NCBI RefSeq assembly: GCF_000826645.1
Contig: NZ_JXJP01000013.1
Location: 124,001-188,000 of the forward strand
Source: Psychroserpens mesophilus
GTDB taxonomy: Bacteria > Bacteroidota > Bacteroidia > Flavobacteriales > Flavobacteriaceae
Direction of reading: 5' to 3'
DNA: 64,000 bases
The notes below the pieces were generated by a model. It searched no databases and had not been told where the DNA came from. It worked only from the letters and a program-made list of their open reading frames with translations. Each line of letters starts with the position of its first letter. Positions within the stretch are counted from its first letter, which is position 1. Shown here piece after piece: positions 14,752-34,736 of this stretch. The translations under genes and the position numbers were made by a program.

Positions 14752-16530
14752 ATGAAGCAATTTCTACTTATCGTCTTACTTATTAGTTTTTCATTTGGGT
14801 TTTCCCAAAATGAACAACTGGCAGATGACTATTTCAAACGTGGAGAGTTTGAAAAAGCGCTAATCACTTACCAAAAACTTTACGAAAAAAATAAAGGCAA
14901 TTATAAATACATCTATAAACTTGTTGAAACCTACCAGCAACTTGAACGCTATGATGATGCTCAAATTCTTTTATTAGAACGTATTTCAAAAAGTAACAAT
15001 CCATCATTATTGGTGGAATTAGGCTACAATTATCAATTAAAAGGTAATACAGACATTTCAGAAACCTATTATACAGATGCTATAATTGCCATCGACGAAA
15101 ACCCAGCATTTACGTATAGTGTGGCAAAACAATTTCAAGACCACAGTCTTTTAGAAAAAGCCATTATCGTTTATAAAAAGGGAATGATTCTCAATCCAAA
15201 TCAAAATTACAATGTACAGCTTGCACGTATTTATGGCGAACTTGGAAATGTTGAAGAAATGTTCTCCAACTACATCGATTATATCGAAACAAAACCAACA
15301 TTTCTAAACAATGGTAAACGAGCCTTTAGCGATTTTATTTCTGAAAACAGTGACAATGAAAATAACATCTCACTAAGAAAAATACTCCTGAAAAAAATTC
15401 AGGCACAACCTGATGAAATGTGGTATGATATGTTGAGCTGGTTGTACATTCAGGAAAAAGCTTATAACAAAGCGTTTGTTCAGGAGAAAGCCTTATACAA
15501 AAGAAATCCTGAAAGCTTATCTCGAATAACAGAATTAGCACTCACAGCTATTAATGAGAAAGATTACGACACAGCCAATTCAATTTTTAATTACATATTA
15601 GAAAATTCTCAGGACATAGAAACTAAACTTACAGCTCATCAATACCTTTTAGATATTGAAATCACCAATGCCAGTAAAAAAGACCTAAAGGATATTCAAA
15701 ACAAATATCTGGAACTTTTTAAACAGTATGGAATGTATGAACAAACCATTGCGCTTCAAATTGCTTATGGTGATTTTTTAGCATTTAACCTTCATGAGCC
15801 AAAAGAAGCCAGTGCATTTCTCAAGAATAGCCTTGAATTAGAATTGTCCTTATTTCAGGAAGCTACAGTAAAACTAAAATTAGGCGACATTTTAGTGTTT
15901 CAGGAAAAATTTAATGAAGCTCTTATTTATTATTCTCAAATTCAGGCGAACCTTAAAAACAGTACCATTTCACAGCAAGCCAGATATAAGGTAGCTAAAA
16001 CAAGTTATTACAAAGGTGATTTTGAATGGGCTGAATCGCAACTTAAAATTTTAAAATCATCAACATCGCAATTGATTGCTAACGATGCCTTAGACTTGAA
16101 GCTTTTAATTTCAGATAATATTCAGGAAGACTCACTACATACAGCATTGCGTCTCTACTCTAAAGCCGATTTGTTAGCGTTTCAGAATAAAAATGAAGAA
16201 GCCATTACTTTATTAGGTAAAATTTTAACGGAACACAAAGGTGAAACTATTGAAGATCAGGCTCTGTTTATGCAAGCCAAATTATTCGAAAAGACAAAAC
16301 AATACGATAAAGCTGTTGCAAATTACGAATACATTATTGCCAATTACAGAGATGAAATTTTAGCTGATGACGCTTACTTCTATTTAGCTGAATTGTACCA
16401 AACCCAACTTGGTGAACCGGAAAAAGCAAAACCGCTTTACGAAAACATAATTTTCAAGCATGAAGACAGCATCTATTTTATTGAAGCCAGAAAACGGTTT
16501 AGAATGTTACGAGGCGATGCGATTAATTAG
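14752..16530 (+). CDS. Exported tetratricopeptide-repeat protein
   Basis: The 592-residue protein has a signal peptide (MKQFLLIVLLISFSFGFSQ), so it is exported to the periplasm or outer membrane. The mature part is almost entirely helical TPR units: an N-terminal block (ADDYFKRGEFEKALITYQKL onward) and a C-terminal block (KAVANYEYIIANYRDEILAD). No catalytic domain was seen. TPR proteins act as scaffolds for protein complexes; the partner is unknown. It stands alone behind a terminator. Directly after its TAG stop begins an exact heptamer tandem array. Confidence 0.75.
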   Translation: MKQFLLIVLLISFSFGFSQNEQLADDYFKRGEFEKALITYQKLYEKNKGNYKYIYKLVETYQQLERYDDAQILLLERISKSNNPSLLVELGYNYQLKGNTDISETYYTDAIIAIDENPAFTYSVAKQFQDHSLLEKAIIVYKKGMILNPNQNYNVQLARIYGELGNVEEMFSNYIDYIETKPTFLNNGKRAFSDFISENSDNENNISLRKILLKKIQAQPDEMWYDMLSWLYIQEKAYNKAFVQEKALYKRNPESLSRITELALTAINEKDYDTANSIFNYILENSQDIETKLTAHQYLLDIEITNASKKDLKDIQNKYLELFKQYGMYEQTIALQIAYGDFLAFNLHEPKEASAFLKNSLELELSLFQEATVKLKLGDILVFQEKFNEALIYYSQIQANLKNSTISQQARYKVAKTSYYKGDFEWAESQLKILKSSTSQLIANDALDLKLLISDNIQEDSLHTALRLYSKADLLAFQNKNEEAITLLGKILTEHKGETIEDQALFMQAKLFEKTKQYDKAVANYEYIIANYRDEILADDAYFYLAELYQTQLGEPEKAKPLYENIIFKHEDSIYFIEARKRFRMLRGDAIN

Positions 16531-16607
16531 TTGTTAGTTGTTAGTTGTTAGTTGTTAGTTGTTAGTTGTTAGTTGTTAGTTGTTAGTTGTTAGTTGTTAG
16601 TTGTTAG
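16531..16607. repeat. Exact tandem array (TTGTTAG)x11
   Basis: Eleven uninterrupted copies of the 7-base unit TTGTTAG (77 bases) start immediately after the TAG stop of the TPR gene. The units are identical, which points to recent slippage. A loose complement of the unit (AACAACTAAACAAACAACTAA) lies about 1 kb away near 17650. It is a simple-sequence repeat and not a CRISPR, because there are no spacers. Confidence 0.95.
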
Positions 16608-16666: not shown

Positions 16667-16742
16667 GTCATTCCGAACGTTACTGAGATCAAAATATATT
16701 TTGGTTGAAAGTACATTGCGAAGCAAATGAGGAGGAATCTCA
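16667..16742 (+). repeat. GTCAT...ATCTC interspersed palindromic repeat, copy 1 (degenerate)
   Basis: Begins GTCATTCCGAACG and ends GAAGCAAATGAGGAGGAATCTC-like (final bases GGAATCTC). The two ends are typical of the repeat family seen elsewhere in the window (20490, 21541, 30790, 34651, 58696). It fills most of the spacer before the GNAT gene. Confidence 0.6.
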
Positions 16743-20489: not shown

Positions 20490-20517
20490 GTCATGCTGAA
20501 CTTGTTTCAGCATCTCA
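20490..20517 (+). repeat. GTCAT...ATCTC palindromic repeat, copy 2 (single hairpin)
   Basis: The sequence runs GTCATGCTGAA-CTTG-TTTCAGCATCTC, a hairpin whose stem is ATGCTGAA against TTCAGCAT. Compared with the copy inside mfd (30827-30853), one stem base pair is changed on both sides (T-A to G-C), a compensatory change. Translated, it gives the spurious MLNLFQHLI N-terminus in front of the dehydrogenase. Confidence 0.8.
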
Positions 20518-20573: not shown

Positions 20574-21530
20574 ATGAACATACTCCATTTAGATACCAAC
20601 CATCCTTTGCTTATAGAGCAACTTAATGCCTTAGGATTTACTAACGACGAGGATTATACGTCTTCTAAAGAAGCTATTGCCAATATCATTCACCAATACG
20701 ATGGTTTCATCATTCGTAGCCGATTTAAAATTGATAAGCAATTTCTTGATGCAGCTACAAATCTAAAATTTATTGGTCGCGTTGGTGCAGGATTAGAAAA
20801 CATCGATTGCGAATATGCAGAACAAAAAGGCATCAAACTCATTGCTGCTCCAGAAGGCAATCGTAATGCTGTAGGCGAACATAGTTTAGCCATGTTATTG
20901 TCGCTCTTTAATAAACTCAATAAAGCAGATCGAGAAGTCAGAAATGGCACATGGAATCGTGAAGATAATCGTGGATTGGAACTCGATGGAAAAACTGTTG
21001 GACTTATTGGCTATGGTAATATGGGAAAAGCTTTTGCTAAAAAACTACGAGGTTTTGATGTCGAGGTGTTGTGTTATGATATCAAAGCAGATGTTGGAGA
21101 TGAAAACGCCAAACAAGTGACTTTAGAAGAACTGCAATTAAAAGCAAACGTCCTTAGTCTTCATACACCTGAAACACCATCAACTATTGGTATGATCAAC
21201 TCTGAATTTATAAATGCATTTCAAAATTCGTTTTGGTTAATCAATACAGCTCGAGGAAAAAGTGTCGTCACCGAAGATTTAGTTTCAGCTTTACAATCTG
21301 GTAAAATCTTAGGTGCTGGTTTAGATGTTCTAGAATATGAAAAATCGTCGTTTGAAAATCTGTTTAAAGCTTCTGTCACATCAAGCGCAGTCGAGATGCC
21401 AAACGCTTTTAAATATCTCATTTCAGCAGATAATGTATTACTAACGCCTCATGTTGCTGGCTGGACTATTGAGAGCAAAGAAAAATTAGCACAAACTATC
21501 GTCGATAAAATTAAAGCTCATTTTACATAA
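20574..21530 (+). CDS. D-isomer-specific 2-hydroxyacid dehydrogenase (SerA-like) with a repeat-derived insert
   Basis: An NAD-dependent dehydrogenase, 318 residues from the chosen ATG at 20574. The frame extends upstream to 20493, but those 27 codons (MLNLFQHLI...) are translated repeat sequence. NAD-binding motif GYGNMG is near residues 146-151, the arginine motif LINTARGKSVV follows, and the catalytic histidine is in LLTPHVAGW (H293). A phosphoglycerate dehydrogenase role is possible but unproven. Residues 267-275 (SVTSSAVEM) are encoded by a copy of the dispersed repeat also found inside mfd. The insert lies between the GLDVLE segment and the catalytic histidine. Confidence 0.87.
   Translation: MNILHLDTNHPLLIEQLNALGFTNDEDYTSSKEAIANIIHQYDGFIIRSRFKIDKQFLDAATNLKFIGRVGAGLENIDCEYAEQKGIKLIAAPEGNRNAVGEHSLAMLLSLFNKLNKADREVRNGTWNREDNRGLELDGKTVGLIGYGNMGKAFAKKLRGFDVEVLCYDIKADVGDENAKQVTLEELQLKANVLSLHTPETPSTIGMINSEFINAFQNSFWLINTARGKSVVTEDLVSALQSGKILGAGLDVLEYEKSSFENLFKASVTSSAVEMPNAFKYLISADNVLLTPHVAGWTIESKEKLAQTIVDKIKAHFT
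21371..21398 (+). repeat. Repeat half-element inside the dehydrogenase gene, copy 3
   Basis: This 28-base stretch, starting TTCTGTCACATC and ending GCAGTCGAGATG, is identical to mfd 30790-30817 except for one base (AAGCGCAG here, GAGCGCAG there). Both are read in the same phase, giving SVTSSAVEM. The two genes are otherwise unrelated. Confidence 0.88.
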
Positions 21531-28260: not shown

Positions 28261-29265
28261 ATGTCTCAAAAAAATCAAACCCTTGGTGAATTCATCATCG
28301 AAAACCAATCTGCATTTAAATACACTTCAGGAGAACTTTCTCGACTCATAAATTCAATTCGACTAGCGGCTAAGGTTGTTAATCACGAGGTAAACAAAGC
28401 AGGTTTGGTTGATATCATTGGTGCTGCAGGTGATACGAATATACAAGGCGAAGATCAACAAAAGCTGGATGTTTATGCAAACAATAAGTTTATCCAAACC
28501 ATGACCAAACGTAATATTGTTTGTGGTATTGCCAGTGAAGAAGAGGACGATTTTATCTCAATTAACAGTCAGGATGAAAACCATCAAAACAAATATGTCG
28601 TTTTAATTGATCCATTAGATGGCTCTTCTAATATTGATGTTAATGTTTCCGTTGGTACCATTTTCTCTATTTACAGACGTATTACTCCTGTTGGAACTCC
28701 TGTTACTATTGACGATTTTCTTCAGAAAGGACATCAACAAGTGGCTGCTGGATATATCATTTACGGGACGTCAACAATGCTTGTTTATACAACAGGAAGT
28801 GGTGTAAACGGATTCACCTTAAACCCAGCTATTGGGTCTTTCTATTTATCACATCCAGACATGCAATTTCCTGTAGACGGCAAGATTTATTCAGTTAATG
28901 AGGGTAACTACATTCACTTTCCACAAGGCATAAAGAACTACATCAAGTACTGCCAACAAGAAGAAGGTGACAGACCATATACAAGCCGATACATTGGATC
29001 TTTAGTATCAGATTTTCATAGAAATATGATCAAAGGAGGTATTTACATGTATCCTAAGAGTTCTACAAATTCTAATGGTAAATTGCGATTACTGTATGAA
29101 TGTAATCCAATGGCATTTCTTGCTGAACAAGCAAGTGGTAAAGCCAGTGACGGATTTACGAGAATTATGGACATACAACCTACCGAACTACACCAACGGG
29201 TACCATTCATCTGTGGCAGTAAAAACATGGTAGAAAAAGCTGAAGAATTTATGAGAAACGCATAA
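28261..29265 (+). CDS. fbp: Fructose-1,6-bisphosphatase class I
   Basis: Hydrolyses fructose 1,6-bisphosphate to fructose 6-phosphate, the committed step of gluconeogenesis. The 334-residue protein carries EEEDD, the metal-binding [11 protein letters not shown] motif and [11 protein letters not shown]; the C-terminus includes [20 protein letters not shown]. Length is normal for class I. It is transcribed divergently from the GNAT-lysC operon; a one-mismatch promoter box (GATATTTG) lies about 30 bases upstream. It ends at an intrinsic terminator. Confidence 0.95.
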
Positions 29266-29267
29266 AA

Positions 29268-29292
29268 AAAGCAGCCTGTTTCAGACTGCTTT
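29268..29292. terminator. Terminator between fbp and the TerB-like gene
   Basis: AAAGCAG-C-CTG, loop TTT, CAG-A-CTGCTTT: ten pairs with one C/A mismatch, with A and T runs on both sides, between convergent genes. Confidence 0.65.
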
Positions 29293-29315
29293 ATTCGCTT
29301 ACAATGAAGACTCTT

Positions 29316-29747
29316 TTATTGATTCATTTTCTTCATTTTATCTATAAATTCATCAAGGTCAACTTCATAATGAACTAAAGTTAAAGCCTTGTCTGTAATA
29401 TATTTTACATTATCCTGATTAAATCCTAAACCTACCGCTAATTTCTCTAATAATCCAGCTTGATCTGGTCCTTCAATATGATCTGCCCAAACCATACGTG
29501 CTAAATCGTAAAGGCGTTCTAATCGCATATCATAAGACAATGGTGGATTAATGGGATGACTCTTGTAATCTTTTAAAATTTCTTTATAATCGGCTTCTGT
29601 AATACCTAATCGTGTAGCCAAACGATCTAAAAATGCTTTTTCTGCATCATTAATTACTCCATCACTCATTGCAACTCTTACGATTGCTGCAAAATGATCT
29701 TCATTACGTTTTTTAAATCCGCTTTCGAATAATTCTGAAAATGACAT
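29316..29747 (-). CDS. TerB-family (tellurite resistance-like) protein
   Basis: The 143-residue helical protein has the TerB fold signature: HFAAIVRVAMSDGVINDAEKAFLDRLATRLG, with the acidic D-G-x-I-x-x-x-E pattern that binds metal in characterised TerB. There is no signal peptide. Despite the family name, single TerB-like genes are widespread and need not confer tellurite resistance. It is divergent from mfd with promoter boxes back to back. Confidence 0.8.
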   Translation of the reverse strand: MSFSELFESGFKKRNEDHFAAIVRVAMSDGVINDAEKAFLDRLATRLGITEADYKEILKDYKSHPINPPLSYDMRLERLYDLARMVWADHIEGPDQAGLLEKLAVGLGFNQDNVKYITDKALTLVHYEVDLDEFIDKMKKMNQ

Positions 29748-29769
29748 ATCCTTTAATTTTTAAGTGGCA

Positions 29770-29800
29770 CAAAGATAGTTTTATTAATACATTTTAACAA
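29770..29800 (-). promoter_or_regulatory. Promoter of the TerB-like gene (-7 and -33 elements)
   Basis: The minus strand reads TTG, 20 bases, then TATCTTTG (29770-29777), a full match to the Bacteroidota housekeeping promoter, 23 bases before the start codon. Confidence 0.65.
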
Positions 29801-29821
29801 TATGCTAAAGCACAAATATTT

Positions 29822-29829
29822 TATATTTG
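29822..29829 (+). promoter_or_regulatory. -7 promoter box of mfd
   Basis: TATATTTG matches TAnnTTTG, 17 bases before the TTG start of mfd and about 45 bases from the divergent TerB promoter. Confidence 0.55.
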
Positions 29830-29845
29830 CACAAAATAAAATGTC

Positions 29846-32800
29846 TTGAGTAAATCCATTCTCTCGCAAACGTATGCACAGGCTTTGCAAATGCAAAATC
29901 TGCAGTCTGCTATAGCTCAAACTGGAGCAAAATTACATGTTAAAGGTTTAATTGGTTCTTCATTGTCATTGGTCATTAGCGAAGTCTTTAAAGCTTCTGA
30001 GCTTCCATTTTTACTAGTGTTTAACGATAAAGAAGAAGCTGCTTTTTATCTCAACGACTTAGAAGTATTACTCAATGATAAGGATGTCTTGTTTTATCCA
30101 GGTAGTTATCGTAGACCCTATCAAATAGAAGAAACCGATAATGCTAATGTATTATTAAGAGCAGAAGTTTTAAACAGAATAAATTCCAGAAAAAAACCAG
30201 CTATCATTGTCACGTATCCTGATGCGCTTTTTGAAAAAGTAGTGACGCGTCGCGAGCTTGAGAAGAACACCTTAAAAGTTGCTGTTGGTGACGAATTGTC
30301 TCTGGATTTTGTAAATGAAGTACTTTTTGAATACAAATTTAAACGCGTTGATTTTGTTACCGAACCTGGAGAATTTTCAGTTCGTGGTGGCATTGTAGAT
30401 GTCTTTTCATTTTCTCATGATGAACCTTATCGCATTGAGTTTTTTGGAGATGAAGTCGATAGCATTAGAACCTTTGATGTTGAAACACAACTCTCAACTG
30501 AGCAAATCAAAAAAATAGGCATCATCCCTAATGTAGCTAATAAGTTTTTAGAGGAAAACAGACAGAGTTTTCTAAACTATATTGCTCAAAAAACAGTCGT
30601 ATTTTCAAAGAACTCAGATTTACTTTTTTCAAGAATAGATGACTTTTTCGGAAAGGCTGAAGAGGCTTTCAAAAATCTATCTTCAGAATTAAAACATTCG
30701 GCACCTGAAGAATTGTTCTGTAATGCAAAATTACTGAAACAACAACTTCTTGATTTTAGTTTGGTTGAATTTGGAACAACAGCTAATTTTTCTGTCACAT
30801 CGAGCGCAGTCGAGATGTCTCATGATGAGATTCTGAAACAAGTTCAGAATGACAATGTAATCCAATTCAATACCTCACCTCAACCGTCTTTTAATAAACA
30901 ATTCAACTTATTAATTGAAGATTTAAATACCAATCATGACAAAGGTTATACCAATTATATCGCATGTGTAAGTGAGCAACAAGCCAAACGATTTCACGAT
31001 ATTTTTGAAGATGTCGAAGAAGATGTTCATTATAAAACGATTGTATTGTCTCTATATCAAGGATTCATTGACCACGATCAAAAAATAACGTGTTATACCG
31101 ATCATCAAATCTTTGAGCGTTACCATAAATTCCATCTTAAAAATGGCTATGCCAAAAAGCAAGCTATTACATTAAAAGAACTTACTAATTTAGATATTGG
31201 AGATTATGTCACGCATATTGATCATGGGATTGGAAAATTTGGCGGACTCCAAAAAATTGATGTAGAAGGCAAGAAACAAGAAGCTATTAAATTGGTGTAT
31301 GGCGAACGTGATGTCCTGTATTTAAGCATTCATTCACTTCATAAAATCACGAAGTTTAACGGAAAAGATGGTAAGCCTCCAAAAGTGTATAAGCTTGGAA
31401 GCAAAGCCTGGAAAACGCTTAAACAGAAAACAAAATCCAGAGTAAAAGAAATTGCATTCAACCTCATTAAGGTGTATGCAAAACGCAAACTCGAAAAAGG
31501 CTATCAATACAAACCAGATAGTTACCTACAACACGAGCTTGAAGCGTCTTTTCTCTACGAAGATACTCCAGATCAAATTACCTCTACTGCAGATATAAAA
31601 GCAGACATGGAAAGTGAGCGACCAATGGATCGTCTCGTTTGTGGTGACGTAGGTTTTGGTAAAACGGAAGTCGCCATTCGTGCTGCATTTAAAGCCGTAG
31701 ATAACGGAAAACAGGTTGCCATTTTGGTTCCAACAACCATTTTGGCTTATCAACATCACAGAACCATAACTGAACGTCTTAAAGATTTTCCGGTTACTGT
31801 AGATTACCTCAACCGTTTCAGAACTGCCAAAGAAAAGCGTGAAACGCTTGAGAAACTCGAAAAAGGACACGTAGATATTATCATTGGAACACATCAACTG
31901 GTCAATAAAAATGTAAAATTTAAAGATTTAGGGTTACTTATTGTTGACGAAGAACAAAAATTTGGTGTGGCTGTAAAAGAGAAACTCAAAACACTCAAAG
32001 ATAATGTCGATGTCTTAACACTTACAGCAACACCTATTCCGAGAACGCTACAGTTTAGCCTAATGGCTGCTCGTGATTTATCAGTAATTACTACGGCACC
32101 TCCAAATCGTTATCCTATTGAAAGTCATGTGATTCGTTTTAATGAAGAGACCATTAGAGATGCTGTAACTTATGAGATTCAGCGTGGCGGACAAATTTTC
32201 TTTATTCATAACCGAATTGAAAATATTAAAGAAGTGGCTGGTATGATTCAGCGTCTCGTACCTGATGCAAAAATTGGAATTGGTCACGGACAACTTGATG
32301 GTAAAAAACTTGAGCAATTAATGCTGGCTTTTATGAATGGTGAGTTTGATGTTTTAGTAAGTACAACTATTGTTGAAAGCGGATTAGATGTACCAAATGC
32401 AAACACCATTTTCATTAATAATGCGAATAATTTCGGATTGAGTGATTTACACCAAATGCGTGGTCGCGTTGGTAGAAGCAACAAAAAAGCGTTCTGTTAT
32501 TTCATTACGCCTGAATATTCAGCAATGACAAACGATGCTCGAAAACGAATTACGGCTTTAGAACAATTTACGGAGCTCGGAAGTGGTTTCAACATCGCTA
32601 TGAAAGATTTGGAAATTCGTGGTGCAGGTGATTTACTAGGAGGTGAACAAAGTGGATTCATCAATGATATTGGGTTTGATACCTATCAGAAAATTTTAAA
32701 TGAAGCTATTGAAGAGCTTAAAGAAAACGAGTTCAAAGACTTATATCAGGACGAAGGTAAAGAGAAAGATTACGTCAAAGATATTACCATCGATACTGAT

Positions 32801-33238
32801 TTTGAATTGTTATTTCCAGATGATTATGTCAATAATATTACTGAACGCTTAAATCTTTATACAAAACTCAATACGCTTAAAACCGAAGAAGAACTGAAAA
32901 CATTTGAAAATGAAATCATTGACCGTTTTGGAGAGCTACCAGTTCAGGTTATCGATTTATTTAATAGTGTTCGCGTCAAATGGATTGCAACTAAAATAGG
33001 TCTGGAAAAAATTATCATGAAAAAAGGTCGCTTTGTTGGGTATTTCATTAACGATCAGCAAAGTGCATTTTATCAAAGTGATAACTTTACTAGAGTATTG
33101 CAATATGTGCAAACCAGACCAAAAGATTGTAAAATGAAAGAAAAACAAACCAGAAATGGATTGCGTTTGCTTTTAACTTTTGATCACATCAAATCGGTTA
33201 AACAAGCTTTGGCTGTTTTAGAATCTATTGTCAATTAA
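29846..33238 (+). CDS. mfd: Transcription-repair coupling factor
   Basis: Removes RNA polymerase stalled at lesions and recruits UvrA. In the 1130-residue protein, the N-terminal UvrB-like module contains YPGSYRRPYQIEETDNANVL. The RNA-polymerase-interacting (CarD-like) domain shows DIGDYVTHIDHGIGKF, and the RecG-like translocase follows (Walker A GDVGFGKTEVA, then VDEEQKFG, TATPIPRTLQ and QMRGRVGRSN). The C-terminal domain is present. The start is a TTG; the ATG five bases earlier is in another frame and stops at once. Residues 316-336 (SVTSSAVEM...QVQND) are translated from a dispersed palindromic repeat, inserted in the linker between the UvrB-like and CarD-like parts. Confidence 0.94.
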   Translation: MSKSILSQTYAQALQMQNLQSAIAQTGAKLHVKGLIGSSLSLVISEVFKASELPFLLVFNDKEEAAFYLNDLEVLLNDKDVLFYPGSYRRPYQIEETDNANVLLRAEVLNRINSRKKPAIIVTYPDALFEKVVTRRELEKNTLKVAVGDELSLDFVNEVLFEYKFKRVDFVTEPGEFSVRGGIVDVFSFSHDEPYRIEFFGDEVDSIRTFDVETQLSTEQIKKIGIIPNVANKFLEENRQSFLNYIAQKTVVFSKNSDLLFSRIDDFFGKAEEAFKNLSSELKHSAPEELFCNAKLLKQQLLDFSLVEFGTTANFSVTSSAVEMSHDEILKQVQNDNVIQFNTSPQPSFNKQFNLLIEDLNTNHDKGYTNYIACVSEQQAKRFHDIFEDVEEDVHYKTIVLSLYQGFIDHDQKITCYTDHQIFERYHKFHLKNGYAKKQAITLKELTNLDIGDYVTHIDHGIGKFGGLQKIDVEGKKQEAIKLVYGERDVLYLSIHSLHKITKFNGKDGKPPKVYKLGSKAWKTLKQKTKSRVKEIAFNLIKVYAKRKLEKGYQYKPDSYLQHELEASFLYEDTPDQITSTADIKADMESERPMDRLVCGDVGFGKTEVAIRAAFKAVDNGKQVAILVPTTILAYQHHRTITERLKDFPVTVDYLNRFRTAKEKRETLEKLEKGHVDIIIGTHQLVNKNVKFKDLGLLIVDEEQKFGVAVKEKLKTLKDNVDVLTLTATPIPRTLQFSLMAARDLSVITTAPPNRYPIESHVIRFNEETIRDAVTYEIQRGGQIFFIHNRIENIKEVAGMIQRLVPDAKIGIGHGQLDGKKLEQLMLAFMNGEFDVLVSTTIVESGLDVPNANTIFINNANNFGLSDLHQMRGRVGRSNKKAFCYFITPEYSAMTNDARKRITALEQFTELGSGFNIAMKDLEIRGAGDLLGGEQSGFINDIGFDTYQKILNEAIEELKENEFKDLYQDEGKEKDYVKDITIDTDFELLFPDDYVNNITERLNLYTKLNTLKTEEELKTFENEIIDRFGELPVQVIDLFNSVRVKWIATKIGLEKIIMKKGRFVGYFINDQQSAFYQSDNFTRVLQYVQTRPKDCKMKEKQTRNGLRLLLTFDHIKSVKQALAVLESIVN
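30790..30853 (+). repeat. Palindromic repeat inserted in frame in mfd, copy 5 (complete)
   Basis: It has two halves. The first, 30790-30817, starts TTCTGTCACATCG and ends GTCGAGATG; it is shared with the dehydrogenase gene. The second, 30827-30853, starts GAGATTCTGAA and ends TTCAGAATGAC; it is the inverse of the hairpin at 20490-20517, with one compensatory pair change. The 64-base block keeps the frame and is free of stops, giving SVTSSAVEM then SHDEILKQVQND. Confidence 0.9.
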
Positions 33239-33307
33239 AAGTATTAATTATGGTTTGGTTCAATATTTGAAGCCAAATAATTTAACAACAATAACTAATT
33301 CGAACTC

Positions 33308-34618
33308 ATGAAATATTTATGTTTTGCCTTGTTTTTAATTCCTTTGAACCTGTTTTGTCAACATAGTATCAGTGGGACATTTTCTCCAGCAACAGATTAC
33401 ACCTATGCTTTTTTATATCATGCGACTCCTACAGGTTCAGACTATGTTGATAGAGCTAAAATTGACGAAGAAGGACATTTTGCTATTTCTTTAGATTCTT
33501 CACTAACTGCTGGAATGTATAAAATTGTATATGCACTTCCACCAGAAGACCACAATTTTGATCTTATTTATAATGGCAAAGAAAATGTTTCAATATCGTT
33601 TAGTACTGAAAAAGGTCTGGAGTTTACTGATAGTAATGAAAATAAGTTATGGTCATCCTATACCAATAGTATGGATATGATAAACAGAACCATTAGCAAC
33701 TACTACACCCAAGAAAGCAAAGATGAAAATGCATTTCATGATATTTTCAAAACTCTAAAAGATACGCAAATTGCTTTTGAAGAAGCTTCAAAAGGAACCA
33801 TGGCAGCCACTTTTATAAAAGCAAATACACCTTATATTCCTGAGTCTTACGAAGATGTGTCCATCTATTCTGCAAACTTAAAACGCACTTTTCTATCTCA
33901 CGTCGATTTTAAGGATTATCTGCTTCAAAGTTCAGACTTTTTAATTGATCGTGTTTTGGCTTATATCTTCGGAATGTCAACAAACACGACTAACGAGACT
34001 TACAAAACAGACATAGATCATGTGGTACATCGAATTGGTGAAGAAAATGCCGAAATCAAAACTATGCTTCTGGAAATGGTATGGAGTCGTTTTAAAAATA
34101 TGGAGAATACGGAAGTTGCAAATTATATTTCAGACAGCTATTTAATGGCTTTGAGTAAGTCTGGAAATTATTTAACCTTAACTGAAAATCTCGAAGTGTA
34201 TCAAAATAATCAAATTGGAAAAACAGCTCAGAATTTTGATATATCGATTACTGAAAAAGAAACCACAACGACAACAACACTTCACAATTTGAACATGGCT
34301 GAGCAATACTTAATTATATTCTGGAGCAGTACTTGCGGACACTGTCTTGACGAGTTACCAAAAGTAAAAACCATGTTGTCATCAAAACCAAACATAAAGG
34401 TCATTGCTATAGGACTTGAAGACGATGCTGAAGGCTGGAATGAAGCTATTAAAGCCTATCCAGATTTTATACATGTATTAGGTTTAGGGAAGTGGGATAA
34501 TCCTATTTCAAATACTTATGGTGTGGAAGCAACTCCAACTTATGTGCTGCTAAATAAAGACAAAATCATTACTCAAAAACCAGTTGATTTAGAAGCTTTG
34601 GAAAAGGTTTTAGAGTAG
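33308..34618 (+). CDS. Exported TlpA-like thioredoxin-fold protein
   Basis: The 436-residue protein has a signal peptide (MKYLCFALFLIPLNLFCQ). A long N-terminal part (about 20-300) is without recognised domain and may correspond to the variable N-terminal region common in Bacteroidota TlpA proteins. The C-terminal thioredoxin domain has WSSTCGHCLDE with active-site C343 and C346 and the cis-proline region VEATPTYVLL. It is probably a periplasmic thiol-disulfide oxidoreductase; the partner is unknown. The gene follows mfd by 69 bases. Confidence 0.83.
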   Translation: MKYLCFALFLIPLNLFCQHSISGTFSPATDYTYAFLYHATPTGSDYVDRAKIDEEGHFAISLDSSLTAGMYKIVYALPPEDHNFDLIYNGKENVSISFSTEKGLEFTDSNENKLWSSYTNSMDMINRTISNYYTQESKDENAFHDIFKTLKDTQIAFEEASKGTMAATFIKANTPYIPESYEDVSIYSANLKRTFLSHVDFKDYLLQSSDFLIDRVLAYIFGMSTNTTNETYKTDIDHVVHRIGEENAEIKTMLLEMVWSRFKNMENTEVANYISDSYLMALSKSGNYLTLTENLEVYQNNQIGKTAQNFDISITEKETTTTTTLHNLNMAEQYLIIFWSSTCGHCLDELPKVKTMLSSKPNIKVIAIGLEDDAEGWNEAIKAYPDFIHVLGLGKWDNPISNTYGVEATPTYVLLNKDKIITQKPVDLEALEKVLE

Positions 34619-34650: not shown

Positions 34651-34736
34651 GTCATCTCGACCAAAGTGGAGAAATCTTTTTATATACACTAGTTTAGTTT
34701 TACTGAACCATACAGATTCCCTACATAATCGAAATA
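34651..34736 (+). repeat. GTCAT...ATCTC palindromic repeat, copy 6 (degenerate)
   Basis: Begins GTCATCTCGACC-AAAG-TGGAGAAATCT, the 'GTCATCTCGACC' variant of the repeat family, and the right side AGATTCCC...ATCGAAAT is a decayed partner. Intergenic, after the TlpA-like gene. Confidence 0.5.

Follow-up and report, generated by a model that had tools for sequence, protein, structure and literature searches.

In-frame palindromic repeats at a hinge of the transcription-repair coupling factor Mfd in Flavobacteriaceae

REP/BIME elements of the E. coli type, which come with RAYT transposases, are mostly intergenic; each is a short hairpin with a tag, and two of them often form a pair in opposite orientations. 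Palindromic elements of a second kind, the Rickettsia palindromic elements (RPEs), reportedly go back to Ogata et al. (2000, 2002). Excerpts of two papers describe RPEs as palindromic mobile DNA lying in frame in conserved proteins and presumed to be tolerated, report that an RPE-bearing guanylate kinase is active with altered substrate affinity, and give the main RPEs as 105-146 bp long with 12-bp terminal repeats (PMC10969869, PMC2229807). In its accessible sections, a 2013 paper covers REPs inside genes, CGTC-type REPs in Bacteroidetes and RAYT transposases, identifies RPE-4 and RPE-6 as repeats of the CGTC type, and reports different REPs near one recB site in two Xanthomonas species (PMC3733652). 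The RepRanger survey of 2025 lists REPs in two Flavobacterium species; as excerpted, it makes rare overlap with coding regions part of its definition of REPs, a trait that the in-gene copies described below do not share, and its main text has no mention of intragenic, within-gene or in-frame REPs (PMC12306157).

The first-pass annotation of the locus studied here took in-frame repeat insertion to be established for RPEs and knew of no description of it for this flavobacterial repeat family. For the Flavobacteriaceae and Mfd we likewise found none in the accessible parts of these sources, but in-gene REPs and Bacteroidetes CGTC REPs are both present in PMC3733652. The accessible main text of the latter, its supplementary list of intragenic REPs aside, names neither flavobacteria, Mfd or transcription-repair coupling nor six other Bacteroidetes genera, and a literature search with most subscription journals outside its reach returned no report of in-frame palindromes in Flavobacteriaceae or Mfd. 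In-frame palindromes are already known, and the recurrent Mfd site and the frame bias of the coding copies look new.

The window, i.e. the whole 64,000-nt stretch of DNA analysed, belongs to the 3.68-Mb genome of Psychroserpens mesophilus, a draft in 72 contigs. It encodes an Mfd protein with Pfam matches to UvrB_inter, CarD_TRCF_RID, DEAD, Helicase_C and TRCF. The closest named Mfd is that of an uncultured Psychroserpens, identical over the compared stretch to the Mfd of one genus member. The features of the locus are as follows.

29846..33238, plus strand: mfd (transcription-repair coupling factor), the host gene; TTG start, 1130 aa
30791..30853, plus strand: codons of Mfd residues 316-336 (S316-D336), SVTSSAVEMSHDEILKQVQND, at the D1b-D3 junction
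30793..30854, plus strand: composite element TGTCA...TGACA of 62 nt, made of repeat A and then an inverted repeat B, tags outward, in frame
30794..30819, plus strand: repeat A, a GTCA tag and a hairpin, encoding VTSSAVEM
30827..30853, minus strand: repeat B, a GTCA tag and a hairpin with a 5-nt loop; the opposite strand reads EILKQVQND

The observation made in the first-pass annotation, that residues 316-336 of Mfd are encoded by a repeat-derived block, is confirmed, and the codon positions agree with it. The block itself is real, with ends one to three bases away from the 30790-30853 initially given. A single ORF (29846-33238) runs across it, the frame staying open and free of stops as had been claimed, and the same holds at the insert site in all 183 Mfd loci that we collected. 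The coding change was not of 63 bases, however: the distance between fixed anchors is 132 nt versus 75 nt in empty relatives, a net gain of 57 nt, so that a few linker bases were replaced or lost. The Mfd protein is presumably made with the insert. Rfam gave no match in 29000-33500.

The insert aligns between residues 337 and 359 of E. coli Mfd, which we take, from the E. coli domain limits, to be the D1b-D3 junction between the UvrB homology module and D3. It had been placed in a linker between the UvrB-like module and the CarD-like domain; the former neighbour is right, but D3 separates the insert from the CarD-like domain, whose Pfam match begins at residue 449. In a full-length structural model that is poor (52 sequences, mean pLDDT 57.5) and was used for local pLDDT contrast only, residues 316-335 have pLDDT values below 50. 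A shallow fragment model (59 of the 77 available fragments, mean pLDDT 76.6) gave 53-65 for the insert blocks versus 82-97 in blocks 11-80 and 111-190, and a PDB fold search with the fragment returned E. coli Mfd at the top, weakly. According to the accessible text of PMC7385628, D3 of E. coli Mfd moves by ~47 Å upon DNA binding and has flexible linkers to D1b and D4.

Both halves of the block had been said to recur in the window, which is borne out by three A matches, one of them with 3 mismatches, and two B matches, against none in 100 shuffles. The copies outside mfd are the following.

20490..20516, plus strand: repeat B just upstream of the likely dehydrogenase start, not counted as coding
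20574..21530, plus strand: D-2-hydroxyacid dehydrogenase gene (Pfam 2-Hacid_dh_C and 2-Hacid_dh) with an in-frame repeat A
21375..21400, plus strand: repeat A near the end of the dehydrogenase gene, 1 mismatch, again reading VTSSAVEM
34651..34676, plus strand: degenerate A-like copy between listed ORFs, its 3 mismatches exceeding the 2-mismatch limit of the genome scan

Scanning the whole genome with up to 2 mismatches for A and 3 for B yielded 58 and 37 copies, respectively (95 in total), and the reversed patterns used as controls yielded 0 and 0. A genome search for the entire block, proposed in the first-pass annotation as a check, thus found its halves in abundance and the block itself at Mfd only: among at least 44 matches (40 of 55 candidates scored), none scored beyond Mfd exceeds 37 bases, which indicates that the dimer as a unit is seen in Mfd only. 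The dispersed units are the halves, not the whole dimer. Thirteen neighbour pairs within 130 bp were found among the A and B copies, ten of them in opposite orientation. Elsewhere in the window, positions 16527-16607 hold some 11-12 tandem TTAGTTG units at and after the end of an ORF ending at 16530, and GTCATTCCGAAC at 16667-16678, which closes a listed inverted-repeat arm, is possibly another B-type repeat.

The case for hairpins lies in covariation among copies and not in folding energy: taken alone, the 84-base strand does not fold better than shuffled sequences (z -0.98), 28 of 200 of which did as well. In repeat A, four of the five outer stem pairs covary: pairs 4-23 and 5-22 are Watson-Crick in 55 of the 58 copies each (shuffle means 19.9 and 14.7, maxima 33 and 27), pair 6-21 in 53 (39.1, maximum 48) and pair 7-20 in 54 (28.0, maximum 41); pair 3-24 shows zero covariation in the 58 copies. 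Pair 5-21 of repeat B is Watson-Crick in 29 of 37 copies (shuffle mean 10.3, maximum 19). At the variable pairs, in-gene copies are paired about as well as the rest, with 41/44 cells against 176/188 for A and 30/36 against 67/75 for B. The B stem comprises 8 bp, from pair 3-23 to pair 10-16, each Watson-Crick in 28-36 of the 37 copies, and encloses a 5-nt loop; its first pair is A-T in 28 copies and its second T-A in 32. The first pair of the A stem is A-T in 40 of the 58 copies, the second varies freely with covariation, and G-A mismatches break the stem. As for the tags, TGTC is conserved in A (T at -1 in 54 copies, G in 57, T in 58 and C in 56), and the base preceding GTC in B is C in 15 copies, T in 12, A in 7 and G in 3.

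These units resemble the CGTC superfamily of REPs as portrayed in the available portion of PMC3733652: a CGTC or TGTC tag, an 8-9 bp stem starting from A-T, a 4-5 nt loop, pairing in opposite orientations, and some units in genes, including repair genes. Repeat B agrees in its terminal CGTC/TGTC (27 of 37 copies), stem length and loop length, and the orientation of neighbouring A and B copies agrees as well. Repeat A has the tag, but unlike the CGTC REPs it has no second A-T pair and contains a tandem G-A mismatch; as its stem does not have A-T at both of the first two positions, we call it related to the superfamily rather than a member. The short tagged hairpins, often in opposite-orientation pairs, are also reminiscent of E. 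coli REP/BIME, but the tag is (C/T)GTCA, not GTAG, and no Y1 transposase was found in the genome itself. With RPEs they share the in-frame insertion into conserved protein genes (23 of the 95 copies, in 19 genes); they differ from the main RPE type in size and terminal repeats, the units being ~30 nt, the dimer 62 nt and the tags GTCA/TGAC. By analogy, the Mfd element would work like an RPE without being of the main RPE type.

RAYT was considered as a mover and set aside. The Y1 transposase signature PF01797 is absent from the own genome, a draft in 72 contigs, and occurs in 4 of 21 genus genomes, with none of our six repeat patterns within ~1.5 kb. DUF559, encountered below, is not a candidate either, as the own genome has none. 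The repeats may be moved by an enzyme absent from this genome or unrecognised in it.

Thirty of the 95 copies fall in ORFs of at least 130 aa. Excluding seven that lie before the likely start leaves 23 copies in 19 genes, 17 of which have a Pfam match and two do not. The hosts include Mfd, the D-2-hydroxyacid dehydrogenase, leucyl-tRNA synthetase, RNase R, 2-oxoacid dehydrogenase E1 and E2, PrmC and TrpF, as well as 3-hydroxyacyl-CoA dehydrogenase, methionine synthase, a methylmalonyl-CoA mutase fusion, mevalonate decarboxylase and AcrB-type pumps. A special link to DNA repair genes, stressed in the accessible part of PMC3733652, is unsupported here, Mfd being the sole recognised repair gene among the 19. 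Most of the 23 copies share polar reading frames. Every one of the 11 coding A copies has the same orientation as its gene (p 0.001), and 10 of the 11 are in the VTSSAVE frame (p 1e-4). Eight of the 12 coding B copies read EILKQVQND and four RHSELVSES, and none uses the hydrophobic VILNLFQNL frame although it is open. The frame bias leans on the choice of start codons, since the seven excluded copies include two B in the hydrophobic frame (C1:490308, C5:144490) and three A on the opposite strand; with all 30 ORF copies counted, A is on the same strand in 13 of 16. Two coding copies with 3 mismatches each (C1:430346, C5:58763) may be chance matches.

Two of these host sites were compared across the genus. 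In the dehydrogenase, whose likely start at 20574 agrees with homologue matches beginning at query residue 3, the A motif is present in 4 of 22 readable genus genomes, including that of the window, and another insert in one more; the insert is missing in most relatives. For leucyl-tRNA synthetase, the editing-domain site could be read in 22 genus genomes (not in G017): 7 of them have repeats of type A, B or F there, and 3 have a DUF559 domain. The count excludes G010, whose short linker gives a weak F match. DUF559 (PF04480) thus stands in frame in leucyl-tRNA synthetase of three genus genomes, at the repeat site of other members, and in a fourth genome it stands in methionine synthase, between two B12-binding domains. 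The DUF559-bearing loci are L252 139-3588, L253 1-3639, L254 1423-3831 and L279 1-3126 (minus strand). In L252, visual inspection shows inverted CCCATCCTA..TCCTTCCC-like repeats on either side of the domain. DUF559 looks like a mobile ORF inserting in frame.

That the Mfd block is inserted rather than ancestral, as interpreted at first, is well supported by the comparison of Mfd sequences. All 23 genus genomes have an orthologue, with a linker of 11 residues in 16 of them, 13-15 in three and 28-39 in four. The A-B dimer occurs only in the window genome and in G011, and the Mfd tree groups these two as sisters with support 97. In G011, whose genome is 88% complete with 8% contamination, the dimer carries point changes and an additional in-frame insert within repeat A. 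The linker of G002 is an A-A dimer and that of G014 another type of insert; G012 has an empty linker, and a stop inside its match. The same 21 residues, whose presence in distant genera had been named as counter-evidence, are absent from all 173 different Mfds except that of the window. The first half alone is found in two distant loci, L107 (an uncultured Winogradskyella MAG, SVTSSAVEM) and L125 (an uncultured Aquimarina, SVTSSGVEM); their second halves differ and the relatives around their branches are mostly empty, suggesting separate insertion events. Searching ten genomes with the window block gave 0-34 matches, with 34 in G001 despite its empty Mfd and 0 in G010; G011 and G324 are also rich in matches.

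The sequences themselves show the insertion, its source in multi-copy repeats, the conserved pairing of the hairpins, the open reading in frame, the recurrence on the Mfd tree described below and a frame bias. The most economical account is that the block, a dimer of two short REP-type palindromic repeats, entered mfd, most parsimoniously before the window genome and G011 diverged, and is now read as part of Mfd. More generally, REP-like repeats would insert broadly, and the copies located in genes would be those surviving selection, i.e. those offering an open frame, a polar peptide and a site in a flexible linker. We put the probability of this account as a whole, the Mfd insertion together with broad insertion and selection for in-frame, polar copies in linkers, at roughly 0.85; the filter would be purifying selection. 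The D1b-D3 hinge offers all three conditions, so that unrelated repeat families have settled there repeatedly across the Flavobacteriaceae, sometimes nested in one another.

To look at the family, we assembled 183 Mfd loci, 173 of them different: 23 from the genus, 80 named and 80 from a family sample. The named set was chosen by similarity, with one of six search peptides derived from the insert, and the family sample comprises the best 80 genomes outside the genus among the matches listed (299 genomes searched), so both sets are biased towards relatives. Linkers were labelled by motif, peptide and eye, which gave 55 filled Mfds of 173 (4/23 genus, 21/76 named and 30/74 family-sample unique rows), 8 of the 55 having no assigned repeat family, and 118 empty ones; by length alone (at least 21 residues), 37 of 173 are filled. 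On a single-gene FastTree phylogeny built without the linker, with type labels partly assigned by eye, we counted 31 filled/empty changes, 46 changes by type and 26 by length, or 23, 38 and 18 after collapsing branches with support below 95, gain and loss being counted together. An alternative labelling with 51 filled rows gave 34 changes.

A repeat motif lies within the linker in 43 of the 173 rows; in four of these the linker has 14-19 residues and the D match is weak. A and B motifs number 27 in the linker versus 2 elsewhere in mfd, the linker representing 1.5% of the bases (nominal binomial 3e-47, the rows being related). With all six patterns, the linker holds 68 matches and the rest of the gene 33, of which the loose C pattern accounts for 23, but patterns C-F were recognised in linkers or known beforehand, so that only A and B, both also window-derived, come near to being uncircular. 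The other ten non-linker matches include five at Mfd reference residue 29 and three at residue 391. Both positions are length-variable (e.g. L203, L204, L213; L062, L149) and carry the repeat A core in reverse. Pattern D is, by inspection, the A core reversed, which leaves at least four repeat cores at the hinge (A/D, B, C and F, the last in two rows only), E occurring solely nested; nested repeats are found in L010, L160, L173 and L224. The C-type insert was searched in 16 genomes and matched in all 13 that carry C-type Mfd inserts, with 0, 0 and 1 match in the controls. In at least 10 of these 13, a further copy lies elsewhere in the genome; in G241 and G168 the mfd copy is the only one. Where tested, the hinge repeats are thus drawn from each genome's own stock. 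Such refilling of one site by several families across a bacterial family distinguishes the hinge from CGTC REPs, for which we found no such case in the available part of PMC3733652, and the excerpts of PMC10969869 and PMC2229807 likewise yielded no report of a single host site refilled by unrelated families across genera.

Recurrence at one site could reflect landing rather than survival if the machinery favoured a DNA motif or structure in mfd. The A copies in L009, L107, L125 and L023 all start after TCT and in the same frame, as this would predict. However, we found no clear target motif outside the element across the 58 A and 37 B genome copies, the T at -1 of A (54/58) belonging to the tag, and the repeats at the site belong to families with different cores, so that several enzymes would have to share one target. 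We consider such a preference rather unlikely.

It is also improbable that a single ancient insertion was followed by loss, decay and overwriting through gene conversion, with few true insertions. Monomer-type A1 linkers are indeed largely grouped in one region of the tree (18 rows, 12 changes), and L076, of type C, is otherwise near-identical to L180, of type A1, as replacement would give. Against this, the filled L125 stands among eight empty Aquimarina-clade rows (L128-L131, L133, L135-L137), other isolated filled species stand beside empty relatives (L023 beside L022, L148/L155, L176/L212), and very many losses back to a linker of 11-12 residues would be needed.

Longer hinges might instead have been selected because they alter the D3 swing, the Mfd inserts being kept for their benefit. 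The site is indeed a hinge that takes part in the loading movements of Mfd, going by the accessible text of PMC7385628 and PMC7864632, and the 55 filled Mfds are in line with this idea. The 118 empty ones, and the varied length and sequence of the inserts, argue against it, as do the 18 other genes of the own genome that hold copies, so that Mfd is not singled out; such domestication thus appears doubtful. Finally, an assembly or sequencing artefact, or skipping of the block at the RNA or ribosome level, is hardly credible, as the dimer is present, with point changes and a nested insert, in the separately assembled sister genome and all 183 Mfd loci are open across the site, and we found no point in its favour.

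Broad insertion followed by selection therefore stays our preferred reading. A bolder extension, which we regard as speculative and unlikely as it stands, would make the Mfd hinge a family-wide standing acceptor site where repeat families turn over faster than genera diverge and where length tunes loading, with leucyl-tRNA synthetase and other hosts behaving likewise, even towards DUF559. If so, part of the hinge variation would be kept and would tune the loading of Mfd onto stalled RNA polymerase. In the parts of the literature available here, the discussion of in-frame palindromic insertions covers Rickettsia, Wolbachia, enterobacteria and Neisseria, along with scattered REP-bearing species. 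An environmental bacterial family now offers a repeated natural experiment, in which one hinge of a repair motor has received many repeat fillings, many of them with empty relatives alongside, and which lets one measure the tolerance of proteins to added residues, the role of selfish DNA as a source of linkers, and the filtering of reading frames.
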